Assembly (NCBI RefSeq): GCF_000023225.1 | Contig: NC_013173.1 | Coordinates: 3,660,501 to 3,724,500, forward strand | Reading direction: 5' to 3' | Length of the DNA: 64,000 bases | Source: Desulfomicrobium baculatum DSM 4028 | Lineage (GTDB): Bacteria; Desulfobacterota; Desulfovibrionia; Desulfovibrionales; Desulfomicrobiaceae | Shown here: piece by piece, positions 11,858-52,958 of the stretch | Numbering within the stretch: the stretch's first letter is position 1 | Layout: the number at the start of each line of letters is the position of its first letter | The notes under the pieces: generated by a model | The model's input: only the letters and a program-made list of their open reading frames with translations | Databases searched by the model: none | Told to the model about the DNA's origin: nothing | Position numbers and translations under genes: made by a program

Positions 11858-11919
<62 letters not shown>

Positions 11920-31396: not shown

Positions 31397-31405
31397 GGGG
31401 GGGGG
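31397..31405 (+). repeat. G9 tract upstream of asnB
   Basis: Nine consecutive G residues lie about 66 bases before the asnB start codon, in an otherwise mixed intergenic region. Confidence 0.8.
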
Positions 31406-36351: not shown

Positions 36352-38466
36352 ATGACCTCTTCATCCCGTTTTTCTCTTTCCTTGACCGGTGAATTCTGGC
36401 TGGCTTGTTTGCTGGTTGTGTTTACTACCGTCTCAATCCGTCTCACCGAGTTGTCGCTTTGGCTCAATGAGGCTTTTTTGGTGGATGGCGAGCACCTCAT
36501 GGCCACGCATGACGCATACGTGTGGCTGTCCGGGGTGAAAGGCATTGGCAATTTCATACATGATCCGTTCACTCGAATTTTGAGCCTTCTTCATAATGTT
36601 TCCGGCATCTCCTTGGCCACCATCGGCTTCTGGTCGCCGATCATTTTCATTCCACTCCTTGCGATCCCTGTTTGTCTGTTAGCCCGGTTTTTGCGATTGC
36701 CTGAAGGCGGGCTGGTTTTTGGCATTCTGGCTACCGCCGGTTTGGGTTTTTTGGTTCGCACCCGCCTGGGGTTCTGTGATACCGACATCGTCAATCTCAT
36801 TTTTCCCGTGGCCATGGTCAGCACCTTTGCTCTTTGGCTCGATGGAATGGGGGCTGAGAATCAGACGGCGGATACGTCGCGTGCGCGCAAGCAGATGGGT
36901 TGGGCTTTGCTTGTGGGCGTGCTGGGGAAGATGTCGGTTTATGTATATCCTGGCAGTTCGAGCATTCTTCTGCCCGCGTTCGGGTTGGCGGTTCTGATTG
37001 GCTTCTGGCGGGCGCATCGCGAAGACCGCTTCTTGTTGGGCAATGGCCTCTTACTTATTTTTGCCGTGCTTTTTGCCGGCTGGCAGGGAGGTGTATTGGT
37101 CGGGGCCTGGGTGGCGTGGGTGCTGTTCAAAAAGGACGTGCCCGCAGCGGTTCAGTTTGGCGGAATGGCGGCTCTTTTCGTAGTTGTGGTATTTCTGGGG
37201 AATTTTTGGGAAATAATTCAAGCGCTCGTCTACCGCCTCTATCTGTACACCAAGGTCGGAACGCCGGACATGATTAGCAACGCGACGGGCCTCAAGCTAC
37301 CTGACATCGCCCAAAGCGTGCGCGAGGCTCAAAATCTCGACTGGAGCCAGATCGGCCCACGCCTGGGCGGAAATTGGGTCATTTTTATTCTAGGCATGCT
37401 CGGGTTTGGCTTTGTGACTTGGCGTCGTCCCGCGCTCCTCGTTTTTTTGCCATTTCTGGCTCTGGGCCTGGCCAGCGTGAAGTTCGGCAATCGCTTCGCC
37501 ATGTACGGCACCGTCGGCGTCGGCGTGGGGCTCGGTTTGGGGTTGAGCGAATTCCTGAAAATGTTCGGCCAGAGTCAGGGCCGGCGCTGGATTGCGCAGC
37601 TGGTCATGGCCTGCGTGGCCTTGTGGCCTTCCGCCGTGTTCATGCAGGAGGTGGGGCCGGTCCCGGTGCTGCCACGGACCTATGCCGAGACGTTCGTGGA
37701 GCTGCGAAATGCGACCGAGGAGGACGCTCTGCTCTGGCAATGGTGGGACTATGGCTATGCCGGTCAGTACTACGCCGAGCGGGTGACATTCGGAGACGGG
37801 TCGCGGCAGTCCGGGCCATGGCTCTACCCGTTGGCCCGCGTGCATTGCGCGTCTTCGCCTCGTGAAGCGGCTCAGCTCATGCGCTATTTCGGGCAGGCCA
37901 TGCTCGACAATGGGACCAGCATTTCAACCGATGTTCGCACAGCCATGTTCAAAGGCAACCCTGTAACTGAACTCCGCGAAATGGATCTGGATCAGGCGCA
38001 ACAGTTCTTGTCCGATCTTGCCGTGGACGGGCAGAATTGGCCCACTACCGTGCCCAATTATTTTGTAGTGTCCTGGGAAAACCTGCGTCTGGCATCCTGG
38101 ATCAGCTACTACGGAAATTGGGACATTGCCTCGGGCAGCAGTTCTCCGGGCAAGATCCAGCAGGTGCGCGGGGAGGTTCGGCTTGATTCGGCGGGGGGTA
38201 TGCTGGTGGTCAATGGCAAGTCGACTCCCGTTGACTCCATGGACGTGGTGGAGGCCGAGGGCGTTCGGAATTTCGAGTGGCCCCACGGTACGGGTACGCA
38301 TGTGGTCATCAACCAGATGTCGCGACAGGTGTTTCTGATGGACGCCAAGATGTACCGGACCATGATGGTGCAGATGCTGCTTCGCCCGGCCACGGATTTC
38401 GAGGGCGATTTTACGCTGGTCGTTGATAATTTTCCGTGGGCTCGGGCGTACAAGGTGCGGCAGTAA
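36352..38466 (+). CDS. STT3/PglB-like oligosaccharyltransferase
   Basis: 704 residues, with about 13 membrane helices then a periplasmic domain. Catalytic features of PglB are visible: D54 in ATHDAYVW (as D56 in C. jejuni), D143/D145 in GFCDTDIVN (as D154/D156), SVRE at 322-325 (as the SVSE/TIXE loop), and WWDYG at 464-468. Such enzymes move a lipid-linked oligosaccharide onto Asn in proteins in the periplasm. PglB orthologues are known in Desulfovibrio (established knowledge). Acting next to the lipid-glycan initiation genes, it likely gives N-glycosylation. Confidence 0.9.
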   Translation: MTSSSRFSLSLTGEFWLACLLVVFTTVSIRLTELSLWLNEAFLVDGEHLMATHDAYVWLSGVKGIGNFIHDPFTRILSLLHNVSGISLATIGFWSPIIFIPLLAIPVCLLARFLRLPEGGLVFGILATAGLGFLVRTRLGFCDTDIVNLIFPVAMVSTFALWLDGMGAENQTADTSRARKQMGWALLVGVLGKMSVYVYPGSSSILLPAFGLAVLIGFWRAHREDRFLLGNGLLLIFAVLFAGWQGGVLVGAWVAWVLFKKDVPAAVQFGGMAALFVVVVFLGNFWEIIQALVYRLYLYTKVGTPDMISNATGLKLPDIAQSVREAQNLDWSQIGPRLGGNWVIFILGMLGFGFVTWRRPALLVFLPFLALGLASVKFGNRFAMYGTVGVGVGLGLGLSEFLKMFGQSQGRRWIAQLVMACVALWPSAVFMQEVGPVPVLPRTYAETFVELRNATEEDALLWQWWDYGYAGQYYAERVTFGDGSRQSGPWLYPLARVHCASSPREAAQLMRYFGQAMLDNGTSISTDVRTAMFKGNPVTELREMDLDQAQQFLSDLAVDGQNWPTTVPNYFVVSWENLRLASWISYYGNWDIASGSSSPGKIQQVRGEVRLDSAGGMLVVNGKSTPVDSMDVVEAEGVRNFEWPHGTGTHVVINQMSRQVFLMDAKMYRTMMVQMLLRPATDFEGDFTLVVDNFPWARAYKVRQ

Positions 38467-47673: not shown

Positions 47674-48327
47674 ATGGCTTTTACATACAGTGATGTTGTT
47701 TTTGGCAGAGAAGAGTGTTTCAAACGGTTCGGAACGGTGTTCGATCTCCCCTTGTTGCAGAATGGGATGGAACAGGCCTTTTTATCCCTGAATACCCGGG
47801 CTGCCGTCATTCTGGACTTTGGCTGTGGTAGCGCAAAGCCATTCAAATGCATCGTAGAGGGGGCGCCTTATGACAATGTCTATTACTCAATGGATACCGA
47901 CAGAAGCGCTGGCGCGGACTTCGCTTCCTTCATTAATGTGCCGGGTGATTTGGCTTTCGATTTCATAATCGCGAATCAGGTGATCGAACATATGGCGCTT
48001 GATGATGCGCACTCCGTTTTGACGCAGGCCCGTTCGCGCTTAAAAACGAAAGGTGTCTTCATTGCTACGGTTCCCAATGTGCAGCACCCCGTACGCTACT
48101 GGGGTGATGTGGACCATAAGCTTCCAATATCATATGCGAATCTTTATGCGTTGTTCGCAGTCAGCGGATATGAGGTCGCCGGGTTGTGGCGATATTCCAA
48201 GGCGGTGCCCAACTCACTTCTGGATCGGTTCCTGGCGCGACGTATGCAAAAGATTTACCGCATCGACTGGGCGGACTCCATCTGCCTTGTGGCCAAAAAG
48301 CTCCACTCAGAGGATGGTGCTGGATGA
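47674..48327 (+). CDS. Class I SAM methyltransferase
   Basis: 217 residues. Motif I is LDFGCGSAK at 47-55, with ANQVIEHM (post-II) and VPNVQHPVRYW typical of sugar methyltransferases of the Methyltransf_11/23 type. It probably methylates a glycan residue, but could modify a sugar nucleotide. It overlaps the next gene (ATGA), so both are co-translated. Confidence 0.8.
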   Translation: MAFTYSDVVFGREECFKRFGTVFDLPLLQNGMEQAFLSLNTRAAVILDFGCGSAKPFKCIVEGAPYDNVYYSMDTDRSAGADFASFINVPGDLAFDFIIANQVIEHMALDDAHSVLTQARSRLKTKGVFIATVPNVQHPVRYWGDVDHKLPISYANLYALFAVSGYEVAGLWRYSKAVPNSLLDRFLARRMQKIYRIDWADSICLVAKKLHSEDGAG

Positions 48328-49859
48328 AAATGTTAACGCTCTCAATAGATGGGCGTGACTATGCCATCCGTCAAACACCCCCGTTGCGGGCGGTGGAGTC
48401 GAATGTACCCGTTTTGTGTGTTGTCAGCTATCTGCCCAATTCCTCCGCAGTGGAACTTGTACGGCTCGCTGTGGAGAGTATTCGTAAGTTCACAGATTCG
48501 CCCTATTCTCTGTGGATTGTGGATAACAACTCCTCGGAAGAGCACAAGGTGTGGCTTCGTAAGCAAGTGGATATAACCTTGGTAGAGATATGCACCCCTG
48601 CCAAGGAACAGGGGAGTTACGCCAATGCGCTGGCCTTAGAAGCCTGTCTGCGGTTACTGCCTGCTGAAACACGTTTTTTCATGAGCCTGCACCAGGACAT
48701 TCTCGTCTGTAAAAGCGGCTGGTTGCGATATTTGCTTTCCAAGTTCACAGATAATGTCATGGCGGTGGGTGTACGAGAAGACCGCGCCAGGGTCCCGGCG
48801 GGCATTCTGCATGTGCTCGGTTACATTGTGAATCTGTCGACGTTTAGGGCGCTGAGGCTTTCTTATTTTCCAGACTTGCCACGCCACGACGTGGGGGATG
48901 CGGCTATTGTCGGGTTGCGGGAGGCGGGATACGCTTACCACGCATCCCGCAACACCATTCACGATGAGGTGTTAGCCGCTACGGTGCCGACACCATACGG
49001 GACTGTCGGATTCGATCGTTCTGTGAACGACGACGGAGACGTGTTTTTCATGCATCTCGGGCGGGGCTCGCTGAAAAGCGACGCTGGCTTCGCGCAGAAG
49101 GAGAAACAGTCTTTTGAGCTTTGGCGCGACTTCGCATTTCGAGAGCTTGGCCTGCCTCGTCATGCGTGCGTCCCTGTGTACCCATCCAATAAACCCGTTA
49201 TGACGACGTTCCGTCGTCTTCATGTAGACGCGTTTCAGTCCGGCGCGTACTGGACGGGAAGGGTTTTAGACGTTGGCGGAAAAAAAGAGAACAAGCGCGG
49301 CGAGTTTCGTCCGCCGAAAGCAGTTGCTTGGGAGTACCTTAATATAGACGAGGACACGAACCCTGACTATGTGGGCTCGGTCGAGTCCATACCTGTACCG
49401 GATGCGTCATTTGACATTGTTTTGCTCGCTGAAGTGTTAGAACATCTCGAAAACCCGGAATTGGCCTTGCAGGAATGCGCGAGAGTGTTGAGGCCTGGCG
49501 GTAGGATGTATATTTTAAGCCCTTTTTTGTATCCGATTCATGCCGATCCCGATGATTTTCAACGTTGGCTTCCTGATAAGTACGCGTCTGTACTCGAAAA
49601 AACCGGGATCCGCATGACGTCGATTTCCCATATGGGTAGGATGGGCGGAGTCGTGTACGACTTGTTCCGGATTTACGCCTCGAACACCAGACAAGTTGGA
49701 AGTCCCTTGGCTAAAAAATTTATCTTAAAAATTTTGTTGCCGCTGACTAATGTTTTTCTGCTGCGTAGCGAGAGGAGAGCATGCCTTGGTAGTCCGTCAG
49801 TAATTACAGGTGGTTTTTACATCGAAGGTGTTAAGCCGTGCTTTCAGGATAGGCTGTAA
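48324..49859 (+). CDS. GT2-like glycosyltransferase fused to a SAM methyltransferase
   Basis: 511 residues in two parts. Residues about 30-280 form a GT-A-like domain (VVSYLPNSSAVELVRLAVESI, LWIVDNNSSEE, FFMSLHQDILV). Residues about 305-470 form a methyltransferase domain with VLDVGGKKENKRGEF near 310, IDEDTNPDYVGSVESIP and LLAEVLEHLENPELALQECARVLRPGGR. It may add a sugar and methylate it in one pass, or methylate the chain end to stop growth. Starts overlap the preceding stop; its stop overlaps the next start (TAATG). Confidence 0.78.
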   Translation: MKMLTLSIDGRDYAIRQTPPLRAVESNVPVLCVVSYLPNSSAVELVRLAVESIRKFTDSPYSLWIVDNNSSEEHKVWLRKQVDITLVEICTPAKEQGSYANALALEACLRLLPAETRFFMSLHQDILVCKSGWLRYLLSKFTDNVMAVGVREDRARVPAGILHVLGYIVNLSTFRALRLSYFPDLPRHDVGDAAIVGLREAGYAYHASRNTIHDEVLAATVPTPYGTVGFDRSVNDDGDVFFMHLGRGSLKSDAGFAQKEKQSFELWRDFAFRELGLPRHACVPVYPSNKPVMTTFRRLHVDAFQSGAYWTGRVLDVGGKKENKRGEFRPPKAVAWEYLNIDEDTNPDYVGSVESIPVPDASFDIVLLAEVLEHLENPELALQECARVLRPGGRMYILSPFLYPIHADPDDFQRWLPDKYASVLEKTGIRMTSISHMGRMGGVVYDLFRIYASNTRQVGSPLAKKFILKILLPLTNVFLLRSERRACLGSPSVITGGFYIEGVKPCFQDRL

Positions 49860-50893
49860 TGAAGATGGCAAGGGTTTTCATATCAGGCCAGGAGAATGTT
49901 GGTTGGTCACTGGACTATGATCACGCGTACATTTCTGCTGCTTGCAAGGAGGCAGGCTACGCGTTGGAAAGCGCGATGTATCGATCCGATATTGTACATA
50001 ATATTTCGTGGAGTGGATTCAATAATATTTTTGCATTCTGGTTGCGAAAAAAGGTACTCCTGACATGTTCTAACTTTATCGAGCCGGATAAATCCAACTA
50101 TAGCCTGTTGGACAAGTGGAACAAGCTAAAGGACAGGCCCATCACATGGCTCTGTCCGAGTTCCAAGCAAAAAAAATTGCTGGACAGATATGGTCTGAAA
50201 ACAGCGCTGTTGCCATTTTTCATTGATTACGGTCTGTTTGCAGGCAACATTGAAGAAACTGTTACCAGAGAAGAATTGCTGCAGGAGTTTGCGATTCCCG
50301 AAGATGTGGTGCAGGCTCGGATGCTCATAGGATCTTTTCAGCGGGACAGCCTCGGAAAGGACTTGAACGTACAAAAATGGCAGAAGAATCCGGAAATGCT
50401 CGTTCGCATGCTTTCGTTTCTGCCAAGAGAGCGTTTCCTGCTGTTGTTGGCAGGCCCAAGGCGGCACTATATTCGCAAGCGGTGCAGGGATCTCGGCATT
50501 CCCCACTGGTTTGTTGGCAAGGAAACTGCTGGCGATGACTTGGCTATAAACACGCTTCCGGTCGAGGCTATAGCCCGATTGTACAGGTTAGTGGATGTAT
50601 ATGCTGTCACATCGGCGAGCGAAGGTGGTCCTAAGGCTATTCTGGAATGCGCAGCGTCCCGTACACTGTGTTTGAGTACTGACGTGGGTTTGGCTTTGGA
50701 TTATCTTGATCCCTCATTCGTCTTTAGCGATGAGAACGCATACGGACGATATCTTTATGGACTTGTCACAGGGGAAGTTGCTTGCCCTGCTGCCTACGTG
50801 GAAAAGGCATTTCTTGGGTGCCGGCAGAAGCATGCTCCCCCTGCCCAGGCGCATGCCCTAGGCAAGGTGTATGCGGATAGTTTGGCCCTTTGA
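49859..50893 (+). CDS. GT-B (GT4-like) glycosyltransferase
   Basis: 344 residues. The C-terminal half has VDVYAVTSASEGGPKAILECAASRTL near 243-268, the donor-binding E-x7-E type region of family 4 enzymes, and an internal AGPRRHY. The N-terminal half is divergent. It is coupled by overlap to the GT-methyltransferase fusion gene, so the two probably act in sequence. The sugar is unknown. Confidence 0.75.
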   Translation: MKMARVFISGQENVGWSLDYDHAYISAACKEAGYALESAMYRSDIVHNISWSGFNNIFAFWLRKKVLLTCSNFIEPDKSNYSLLDKWNKLKDRPITWLCPSSKQKKLLDRYGLKTALLPFFIDYGLFAGNIEETVTREELLQEFAIPEDVVQARMLIGSFQRDSLGKDLNVQKWQKNPEMLVRMLSFLPRERFLLLLAGPRRHYIRKRCRDLGIPHWFVGKETAGDDLAINTLPVEAIARLYRLVDVYAVTSASEGGPKAILECAASRTLCLSTDVGLALDYLDPSFVFSDENAYGRYLYGLVTGEVACPAAYVEKAFLGCRQKHAPPAQAHALGKVYADSLAL

Positions 50894-50974: not shown

Positions 50975-51757
50975 ATGATTAATGACTCTATCCGCAAGTA
51001 CTATACTGATTATTATAGAAATGCACTTGGGCTTCCTGGGTACGAATGCAACGTTCAGAATAGGTTGTATGAAGACGATAACAGCAAGCAGCTTATTGTG
51101 AGTAAATTATCTTTTATTTGTGGCCAGATACCTTCGGGAGGTAAGGTTCTCATTGTGGGGGGGGGGACAGGAGCTGAGCTCGTGGCCTTTCATTCGCTTG
51201 GATTTGAAGCATGGATGATTGAACCTGATAAAGAAGCCGTTAAGGTTGCGCGGCAGAAGTCTGTCGTGAATAATATAGCAGATAAATATGTTATCGATGG
51301 CGTGGCGGAATTAATTCCTTTTAAAAATTCATATTTTGATTTGATATGGTCTTTTACGGTGCTTGAGCATGTTCAGGACTACGATTTGTCTTTACGGGAA
51401 ATTTGTCGTGTGATGCGTCCTGGAGCTTGGGGGTGTCTTTTTTTTCCTGATTATCGGTGCATTTATGAATCCCATTACAAGATGTATATGCCTCTTTTTT
51501 TACCCAAGTGGGTTGCTGGGTTGTTTTTGCGTTTAAAGGGGCGGGATCCTAAATTTTTTCTAAAAAACACTAATAAAATTAATCATCAAAAATTTATTCG
51601 TACTGCCATGGATTTGCCGATTGATACGTTCAGGCACTACCAACCAGTTGGGATTGAGTGGAAGTCTGGCAGAACGTTGATGATGTCATTGGCGTACTTT
51701 ATGAAAATGTATTTGGATATTGAGTACTCGCTTTCTTATTTTATTAAACGCAAGTAG
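50975..51757 (+). CDS. SAM methyltransferase with G10 tract in motif I
   Basis: 260 residues. Motif I VLIVGGGTGAEL lies at 58-69, where the three Gly codons plus the last base of the preceding Val codon form ten consecutive Gs. FTVLEHVQDYDLSLREICRVMRPGA follows as the usual later motifs. It is a Methyltransf_11-type enzyme, likely acting on a glycan sugar. The C-terminal part is Lys-rich and more AT-rich. Any change in the G tract other than by threes would destroy the SAM-binding site and truncate the protein. A T8 run lies at 51438-51445. Confidence 0.82.
   Translation: MINDSIRKYYTDYYRNALGLPGYECNVQNRLYEDDNSKQLIVSKLSFICGQIPSGGKVLIVGGGTGAELVAFHSLGFEAWMIEPDKEAVKVARQKSVVNNIADKYVIDGVAELIPFKNSYFDLIWSFTVLEHVQDYDLSLREICRVMRPGAWGCLFFPDYRCIYESHYKMYMPLFLPKWVAGLFLRLKGRDPKFFLKNTNKINHQKFIRTAMDLPIDTFRHYQPVGIEWKSGRTLMMSLAYFMKMYLDIEYSLSYFIKRK
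51157..51166 (+). repeat. G10 homopolymer in a methyltransferase gene
   Basis: Ten consecutive G residues within the SAM-binding motif codons. Tracts of this size are typical phase-variation sites in glycan loci of other bacteria. Confidence 0.9.
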
Positions 51758-51992
51758 GTGCTAGTTGCTGCTGGTTGTTGACTTGCAAGGAGGGATATGA
51801 AGAGACGAATAAGGCGTTGTGGTGTTGCCAATGAAGTTCTTATTAAGCGAATGGCGTGACACATCGATCTATTAAAGAGTGGGCTGCGCATCTCAGTGTG
51901 TTTTTGTGTACAGCGGCAGTGCGGCTGTGTTCAGCATATGTTTTTTCGTTAGTGCTGTTTTAGAGTCGGATAGGCAGCTTTGGAAAATTTCA

Positions 51993-52958
51993 ATGAATAA
52001 GTGTTTTGGTTTGCAGATCATCTTCGAGTTCGTCGATGGGCCGTATGGCGGTGGCAACCAGTTCCTAAAAGCCTTGGCGGCGTGTCTTGACTCTCGGGGT
52101 GCGCTGGCGCGCTCACCCAAAGATGCAACGGCATTTCTTTGTAACAGTCATCACGAGTACGCACGGATGAATAAATTGCATCACCGCTATCCTGGCATGC
52201 CGGTTGTTCAGCGGGTTGATGGGCCCATTTCATTGATCACCAACGTAGATGATCCTAGGGAAAAGCAGGTTCATCAAATAGCGAATCTTGCCGATGGGTT
52301 CATCTTTCAGTCACGCTTCAGTTTCGATGCTAACATCGAATTCGGGTTTCCTCTGCGGGGTAAGCCGTATATGATCGTGCACAACGCCCCTGATTCGGCC
52401 ATCTTCCCCACCACACCTGTCCGACTGTCGACTGAGCAAGATACAAAGTTACGGATAGTTGCTACGTCGTGGTCCGGAAATCCTCAAAAGGGATTCGATG
52501 TTTACGAGTGGCTGGACAACAATCTCGACTTCGACAAATACGAGATGTGTTTCATCGGCAACACGCCTGTGAAATTCAAGAACATTTCTTTGATTCCCCC
52601 CGTGGACAGTTCGTCTCTTTCTCGCCTTCTCAAGGAATATCACATCTATATCACCGCTTCCCTGAATGACCCGTGCTCCAATGCGTTGATTGAAGCGATA
52701 CACTGCGGCTTGGTTCCAGTAGCCCGTAACAGTGGTGGCCATCCCGAGCTTGTTGGTAATCCGCGCCTACTTTTCAATAAGCCTGAAGAAATCCCCCGCA
52801 TTCTCGCTTTGTTCGAGGGGGGCGGTGTGCAATATTCTTCCTCGTTGCCGGATATAGAGCGAGTAACCACGCAGTATGTGGATTTTATTGGTAGCGTATT
52901 GCCAAGTTATGTTCCGACCGGCTGCTTACAACGTTTACGTTCATATTTTCCTTTTTAG
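51993..52958 (+). CDS. GT4-type glycosyltransferase
   Basis: 321 residues from the ATG beginning MNKCFGLQIIFEF; longer in-frame starts read a cysteine-rich segment unlike the family. The C-terminal domain has PCSNALIEAIHCGLVPVARNSGGHPELVG, the donor-binding signature of family 4, and ATSWSGNPQKGFDVYEWLD. VQRVDGPIS marks the N-terminal domain. It shares this layout with the next gene, suggesting related acceptors. The preceding 235 bases hold no supported gene. Confidence 0.8.
   Translation: MNKCFGLQIIFEFVDGPYGGGNQFLKALAACLDSRGALARSPKDATAFLCNSHHEYARMNKLHHRYPGMPVVQRVDGPISLITNVDDPREKQVHQIANLADGFIFQSRFSFDANIEFGFPLRGKPYMIVHNAPDSAIFPTTPVRLSTEQDTKLRIVATSWSGNPQKGFDVYEWLDNNLDFDKYEMCFIGNTPVKFKNISLIPPVDSSSLSRLLKEYHIYITASLNDPCSNALIEAIHCGLVPVARNSGGHPELVGNPRLLFNKPEEIPRILALFEGGGVQYSSSLPDIERVTTQYVDFIGSVLPSYVPTGCLQRLRSYFPF

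Follow-up and report, generated by a model that had tools for sequence, protein, structure and literature searches.

Phase-variable methyltransferases with poly-G tracts are the closest described counterparts of the locus reported here. The PhasomeIt catalogue lists SAM-dependent methyltransferases of Campylobacter with tracts of G7–13, among them Cj0170 (G8–13) and C. fetus UbiE_3 (G7–10), and its authors caution that some tracts within their length cut-off may mutate at rates below 1e-5 and switch inefficiently (PMC6321876). A gene cluster of Helicobacter canadensis combines three copies of asnB with methyltransferases bearing G9–G13 tracts, the lengths of which vary in reads (HCAN_0647, HCAN_0659, HCAN_0671; PMC2823697). 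Poly-G and poly-C tracts are generally under-represented across 99 prokaryote genomes (Orsi et al., PMC2831843), and a 2025 review poses the open question of whether genomes with phase variation at multiple loci are really restricted to pathogens (PMC11868660).

The window analysed here, the whole 64,000-nucleotide stretch from Desulfomicrobium baculatum DSM 4028, contains a glycan island in which a methyltransferase gene carries a run of ten Gs. The features needed to describe it are as follows (window coordinates):

31397..31405, + strand: intergenic G9 that ranks second in length among the window's G runs; the island's asparagine synthase gene (TIGR01536) lies about 67 bases downstream
36352..38466, + strand: island gene with similarity to the oligosaccharyltransferase PglB (NF050801, 4.4e-30; 104.8 bits, below the curated cut-off of 1300)
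49859..50893, + strand: upstream neighbour, glycosyltransferase group 1 (Pfam Glyco_trans_1_4 / Glycos_transf_1)
50975..51757, + strand: open reading frame of a class I SAM-dependent methyltransferase, 260 aa (Pfam Methyltransf_11, 4.5e-16; motif I VLIVGGGTG)
51157..51166, + strand: G10 homopolymer, comprising the third base of the Val61 codon and the codons of Gly62–64 (GTG GGG GGG GGG; direct reading and run census)
51990..52958, start approximate, + strand: downstream neighbour, glycosyltransferase group 1 (Pfam Glyco_trans_1_4)

The glycan-locus setting proposed by the first-pass annotation is supported by Pfam and NCBIfam matches of the island neighbours, with glycosyltransferases on both sides of the methyltransferase. 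Two further genes with methyltransferase domains lie at 47674–49859, and the island also carries an ABC exporter, a GDP-mannose dehydratase, an asparagine synthase, a PseC-like aminotransferase and the PglB-like protein. By kilobase, GC content is mostly 0.34–0.60 from 28 kb onward versus about 0.6 before 28 kb. This gene neighbourhood suggests that the methyltransferase acts on a glycan, which may be protein-linked, as the annotation had assumed in predicting protein glycans that differ by 14 Da. Assignment of the gene product to the class I SAM methyltransferases is based on a Rossmann-type domain and a glycine-rich motif I, evident from Pfam and from solved relatives; the Methyltransf_11 match begins at residue 61, so that the domain spans the tract, and among solved relatives the best, 2avn_A (1.2e-9), has the motif VLDLGGGTG. 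Close relatives carry Gly-Cys-Gly at the motif I position where the window gene has Gly-Gly-Gly, and the middle glycine is therefore not obligatory. No NCBIfam model scored above cut-off with the product, a GTDB peptide scan returned no close homologue, and none of the relatives in 61 genomes was closer than 41% over 96 aa. The best plasmid match reached 37.5% over 40% and a phage search gave none. Promoter and terminator scans at the methyltransferase locus found nothing above shuffles, and a promoter scan around the G9 at 31397–31405 found no same-strand site.

Direct reading and the frame bear out the earlier claims that the ten Gs encode the glycines of motif I and that a change of one or two bases would shift the frame near codon 62. 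The run is flanked by T (5') and A (3') in the codons GTT CTC ATT GTG GGG GGG GGG ACA GGA, translated VLIVGGGTGAE. Alleles computed from the sequence reach a stop after 66 aa (G8), 80 aa (G9), 67 aa (G11) or 81 aa (G12), while G7, G10 and G13 stay open, with a product of 260 aa at G10. The tract is thus an in-frame homopolymer of slippable length by the PhasomeIt cut-off of at least 7 G or C (PMC6321876), and gain or loss of a single base truncates the protein. Programmed slippage of the transcript was rejected as an explanation: a gene that is open with ten Gs has no need of it.

The Campylobacter precedent invoked by the first-pass annotation is confirmed by the phase-variable SAM methyltransferases of that genus (PMC6321876) and extends to H. 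canadensis (PMC2823697). The Campylobacter genes likewise carry, in frame, a G tract as long as that of the window gene, and a one-base change truncates the product; their tract lengths differ between genomes, however, and many are known to switch, whereas the window gene is known from a single genome. The window gene also differs in its genome, which is G+C-rich outside the island and has MutS and MutL; its tract falls on motif I. The H. canadensis cluster and the window island share a poly-G methyltransferase together with asnB, and the island has in addition the PglB-like gene and the second G run, the G9 upstream of asnB. This likeness is one of gene content. For H. canadensis, reads give a length range per tract; the window tract is known from assembled sequence.

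No other G or C run of the window is as long as the G10, and only one other reaches 7 (the G9). Genome-wide (3.94 Mb, both strands) there are 102 G7, 23 G8, 8 G9 and 6 G10 runs and none of G11 or longer. The six runs of at least 10 compare with 1.5–3 expected from a geometric tail fitted on G7 and G8 (P 0.005–0.08), a mild excess. Most of the 14 runs of at least 9 are intergenic, and three of the six G10 runs lie in frame in genes, namely the methyltransferase, a PEP-CTERM surface protein and a ZacC-like defence gene. When synonymous codons of the methyltransferase gene were shuffled with the protein held fixed, the gene's own codons gave a run of at least 10 in 5.2% of draws and of at least 9 in 18%, the former frequency reflecting that GGG is the commonest glycine codon of the gene (9 of 17; 25.6% of glycine codons in the island). 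Island-average codon usage lowered these frequencies to 0.6% and 3.3%, and shuffling all 26 island genes gave at least one run of 10 or more in 4% of draws. Given the codon usage of its gene, the G10 is mildly unusual but not extraordinary.

We consider it probable that the G10 is, in the main, a codon run of incidental origin. A SAM-binding loop requires glycines, and a gene rich in GGG would write Val-Gly-Gly-Gly as GTG GGG GGG GGG; such a homopolymer would presumably slip somewhat more than unique sequence and so yield truncated, inactive alleles at some rate. The tract itself would be under no selection and its slippage rate would be low. Mismatch-repair genes are present, with open, intact frames for MutS (920 aa) and MutL (611 aa). 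The frequencies from the within-gene shuffle, the lack of any longer run in the genome and the natural occurrence of GGGTG in 2avn_A favour this reading too. Comparable runs occur in genes of other kinds: G10 runs of sister species underlie stretches of glycine in ribosomal protein L2 (rplB; L083, G012) and fumarase (L075, G013), both confirmed by Pfam, and G9 runs of the genus occur in genes for FtsH, TrmD, aldehyde dehydrogenase and phosphoglycerate mutase. Scanning GTDB for a G9 at motif I gave 16 scattered matches, none of them epsilonproteobacterial, which supports chance; in at least three the run lies in the frame of a methyltransferase gene, one of these being the UbiE-like gene of a Vibrio (L253). 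The rplB, fumarase and UbiE-like genes resemble the window gene in that consecutive GGG codons in a glycine motif produce G9–G10, but they are housekeeping genes, whereas the window gene is an accessory gene of a glycan island, where a switch would be tolerable. The pattern that the first-pass annotation had named as refuting a switch, the same glycines in non-G codons in a relative, was found for the PEP-CTERM G10, the one in-frame G10 of the genome for which an orthologue exists: that orthologue, 91% identical and in sister species G001, reads TGG GGT GGA GGA, with the glycines but not the tract; the methyltransferase gene itself is without a close homologue. Against an incidental origin stand the result of the island-codon shuffle, the mild excess of long runs, the Gly-Cys-Gly of relatives and a bias towards glycan genes across the genus.

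This bias emerged from a census in which coding G/C tracts were grouped by length, genes were called by codon model and Pfam (some by eye) and glycan-synthesis genes were counted; genome G015 was excluded. Glycan genes accounted for none of about 50 G7 and G8 coding tracts in the genome of D. baculatum itself (40 Pfam-checked; an exosortase was not counted), for 2 of about 22 G9 tracts in the genus (an O-antigen ligase and a polysaccharide pyruvyl transferase) and for 7 of 20 tracts of at least 10 in the genus. The contrast of 7/20 with 0/50 (Fisher P 6.5e-5) is post hoc, with cases from the genus and controls from the genome itself. The seven glycan-gene tracts of at least 10, two of them within eight codons of the start, are:

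Window 51157–51166, + strand: methyltransferase, G10
L052:1497-2561: polysialyltransferase-family gene, G11 (G002:C61, 8013-8023) directly after the ATG
L063:1478-3010: O-antigen-ligase (Wzy_C) family gene, C12 (G014:C8, 123865-123876, − strand) at codon 8
L074 and L081: two AsnB-like genes beside glycan genes
L085: GT1 gene
L087: GT1-methyltransferase fusion, tract near the gene end

The polysialyltransferase-family gene follows a NeuB-like synthase at a distance of about 500 bases and adjoins an apparent transposase remnant. A second Wzy_C gene of G014 bears a G9 (L145). Relatives found for the O-antigen-ligase family gene of L063 in an orthologue search were only 28–31% identical, too distant for tract comparison. 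The tract in L052 looks like a better-placed contingency candidate than that of the window, and in our judgement the genus-level pattern, especially the gene-start tracts of L052 and L063, is the more interesting lead. It is doubtful, but conceivable, that the genus employs a small set of poly-G/C switches of at least 10 bases in glycan genes (methyltransferase, polysialyltransferase-family, O-antigen ligase, AsnB-like and glycosyltransferase genes) despite its MutS and MutL. If it does, the lineage would have a poly-G phasome; a literature search for Desulfovibrio with homopolymeric tracts and phase variation found no report of one, and a looser search gave no paper on that lineage.

Length differences between species are seen at intergenic G runs of the genus, where orthologous runs measure G9, G11 and G9 (L035, L053, L113). 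The palindromic repeat GGGGCGAAAAATTTTTCGCCCC occurs at 11861–11882 of the window and at six other places in the genome (L272–L278), and its opening G run is 4, 9 or 16 long among the loci compared; to judge by these lengths, the elements look like slippage hot spots. Together, the intergenic and repeat-element differences indicate that G runs of the genus change in length, in both directions, on the time scale of species.

Were the methyltransferase a true contingency locus, slipped-strand mispairing at the G10 would turn it ON (G7, G10, G13) or OFF (G8, G9, G11, G12), a possibility to which we give tentative weight. The ON frame at G10, the truncation caused by one-base slips, the glycan island setting and the H. 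canadensis cluster with its asnB copies and length-variable poly-G methyltransferases (PMC2823697) are consistent with such a locus, as are the changing lengths of intergenic G runs, and the genus-level glycan bias, including the tracts near gene starts in L052 and L063, is the reason for ranking it second. By the same account, which we hold to be possible but not likely, a surface glycan would be methylated in part of the cells and so allow escape from phages, immunity or competitors. The related proposal that the methyltransferase belongs to a small group of poly-G loci among the glycan genes of the genus is likewise rather unlikely, the enrichment on which it draws being post hoc and all seven glycan-gene tracts being ON, with no OFF allele seen, though the method favours ON. 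Also opposed to a switch are the position of the tract on a conserved motif, the absence of the PEP-CTERM G10 as a tract from its sister-species orthologue, and mismatch repair. The contingency-site reading of the first-pass annotation is supported as regards the tract, its frame arithmetic, motif I, the glycan setting and the precedent, but the specialness of the tract is weakened by G10 runs in the glycine motifs of rplB and fumarase and by the G9 at motif I of the Vibrio UbiE-like gene. The G10 is a candidate on/off switch that is plausible but unproven. Should the tract switch, glycan methylation would differ between individual cells of a culture, with consequences for phage resistance and host interaction, and the locus would bear on whether multi-locus phase variation is restricted to pathogens (PMC11868660). 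If it does not, it cautions against taking a G10 by itself as a contingency signature when it lies in a conserved glycine motif of a G+C-rich genome.

Errors in homopolymer length are common, and an assembled run whose true length is 9 or 11 would mean that the gene is frameshifted or the tract shorter in most cells. Assembly G015 of the same genus lends this some colour: an 11-base G/C run matches at 106 places there, and runs of at least 14 occur (e.g. L045, L058, L067); many of its long runs lie within 100 bases of contig ends, and they are probably an assembly or sequencing artefact. In the window gene, however, the frame is full-length at G10 and the methyltransferase domain extends across the tract, and the other in-gene G10 runs of the genome, in the PEP-CTERM and ZacC-like genes, are likewise in frame. 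We regard a length error as highly improbable and as the least likely of the three readings, and retain the incidental codon run as the preferred one.

The in-frame run of the ZacC-like defence gene (L030:2-1519) is an opposite-strand G10, that is, a C10 at codons 4–7 (C1:1446234-1446243). This gene overlaps a ZacB-like gene (PADLOC 1e-160 and 1e-124), and the C10 might possibly act as an on/off switch of a phage-defence system.
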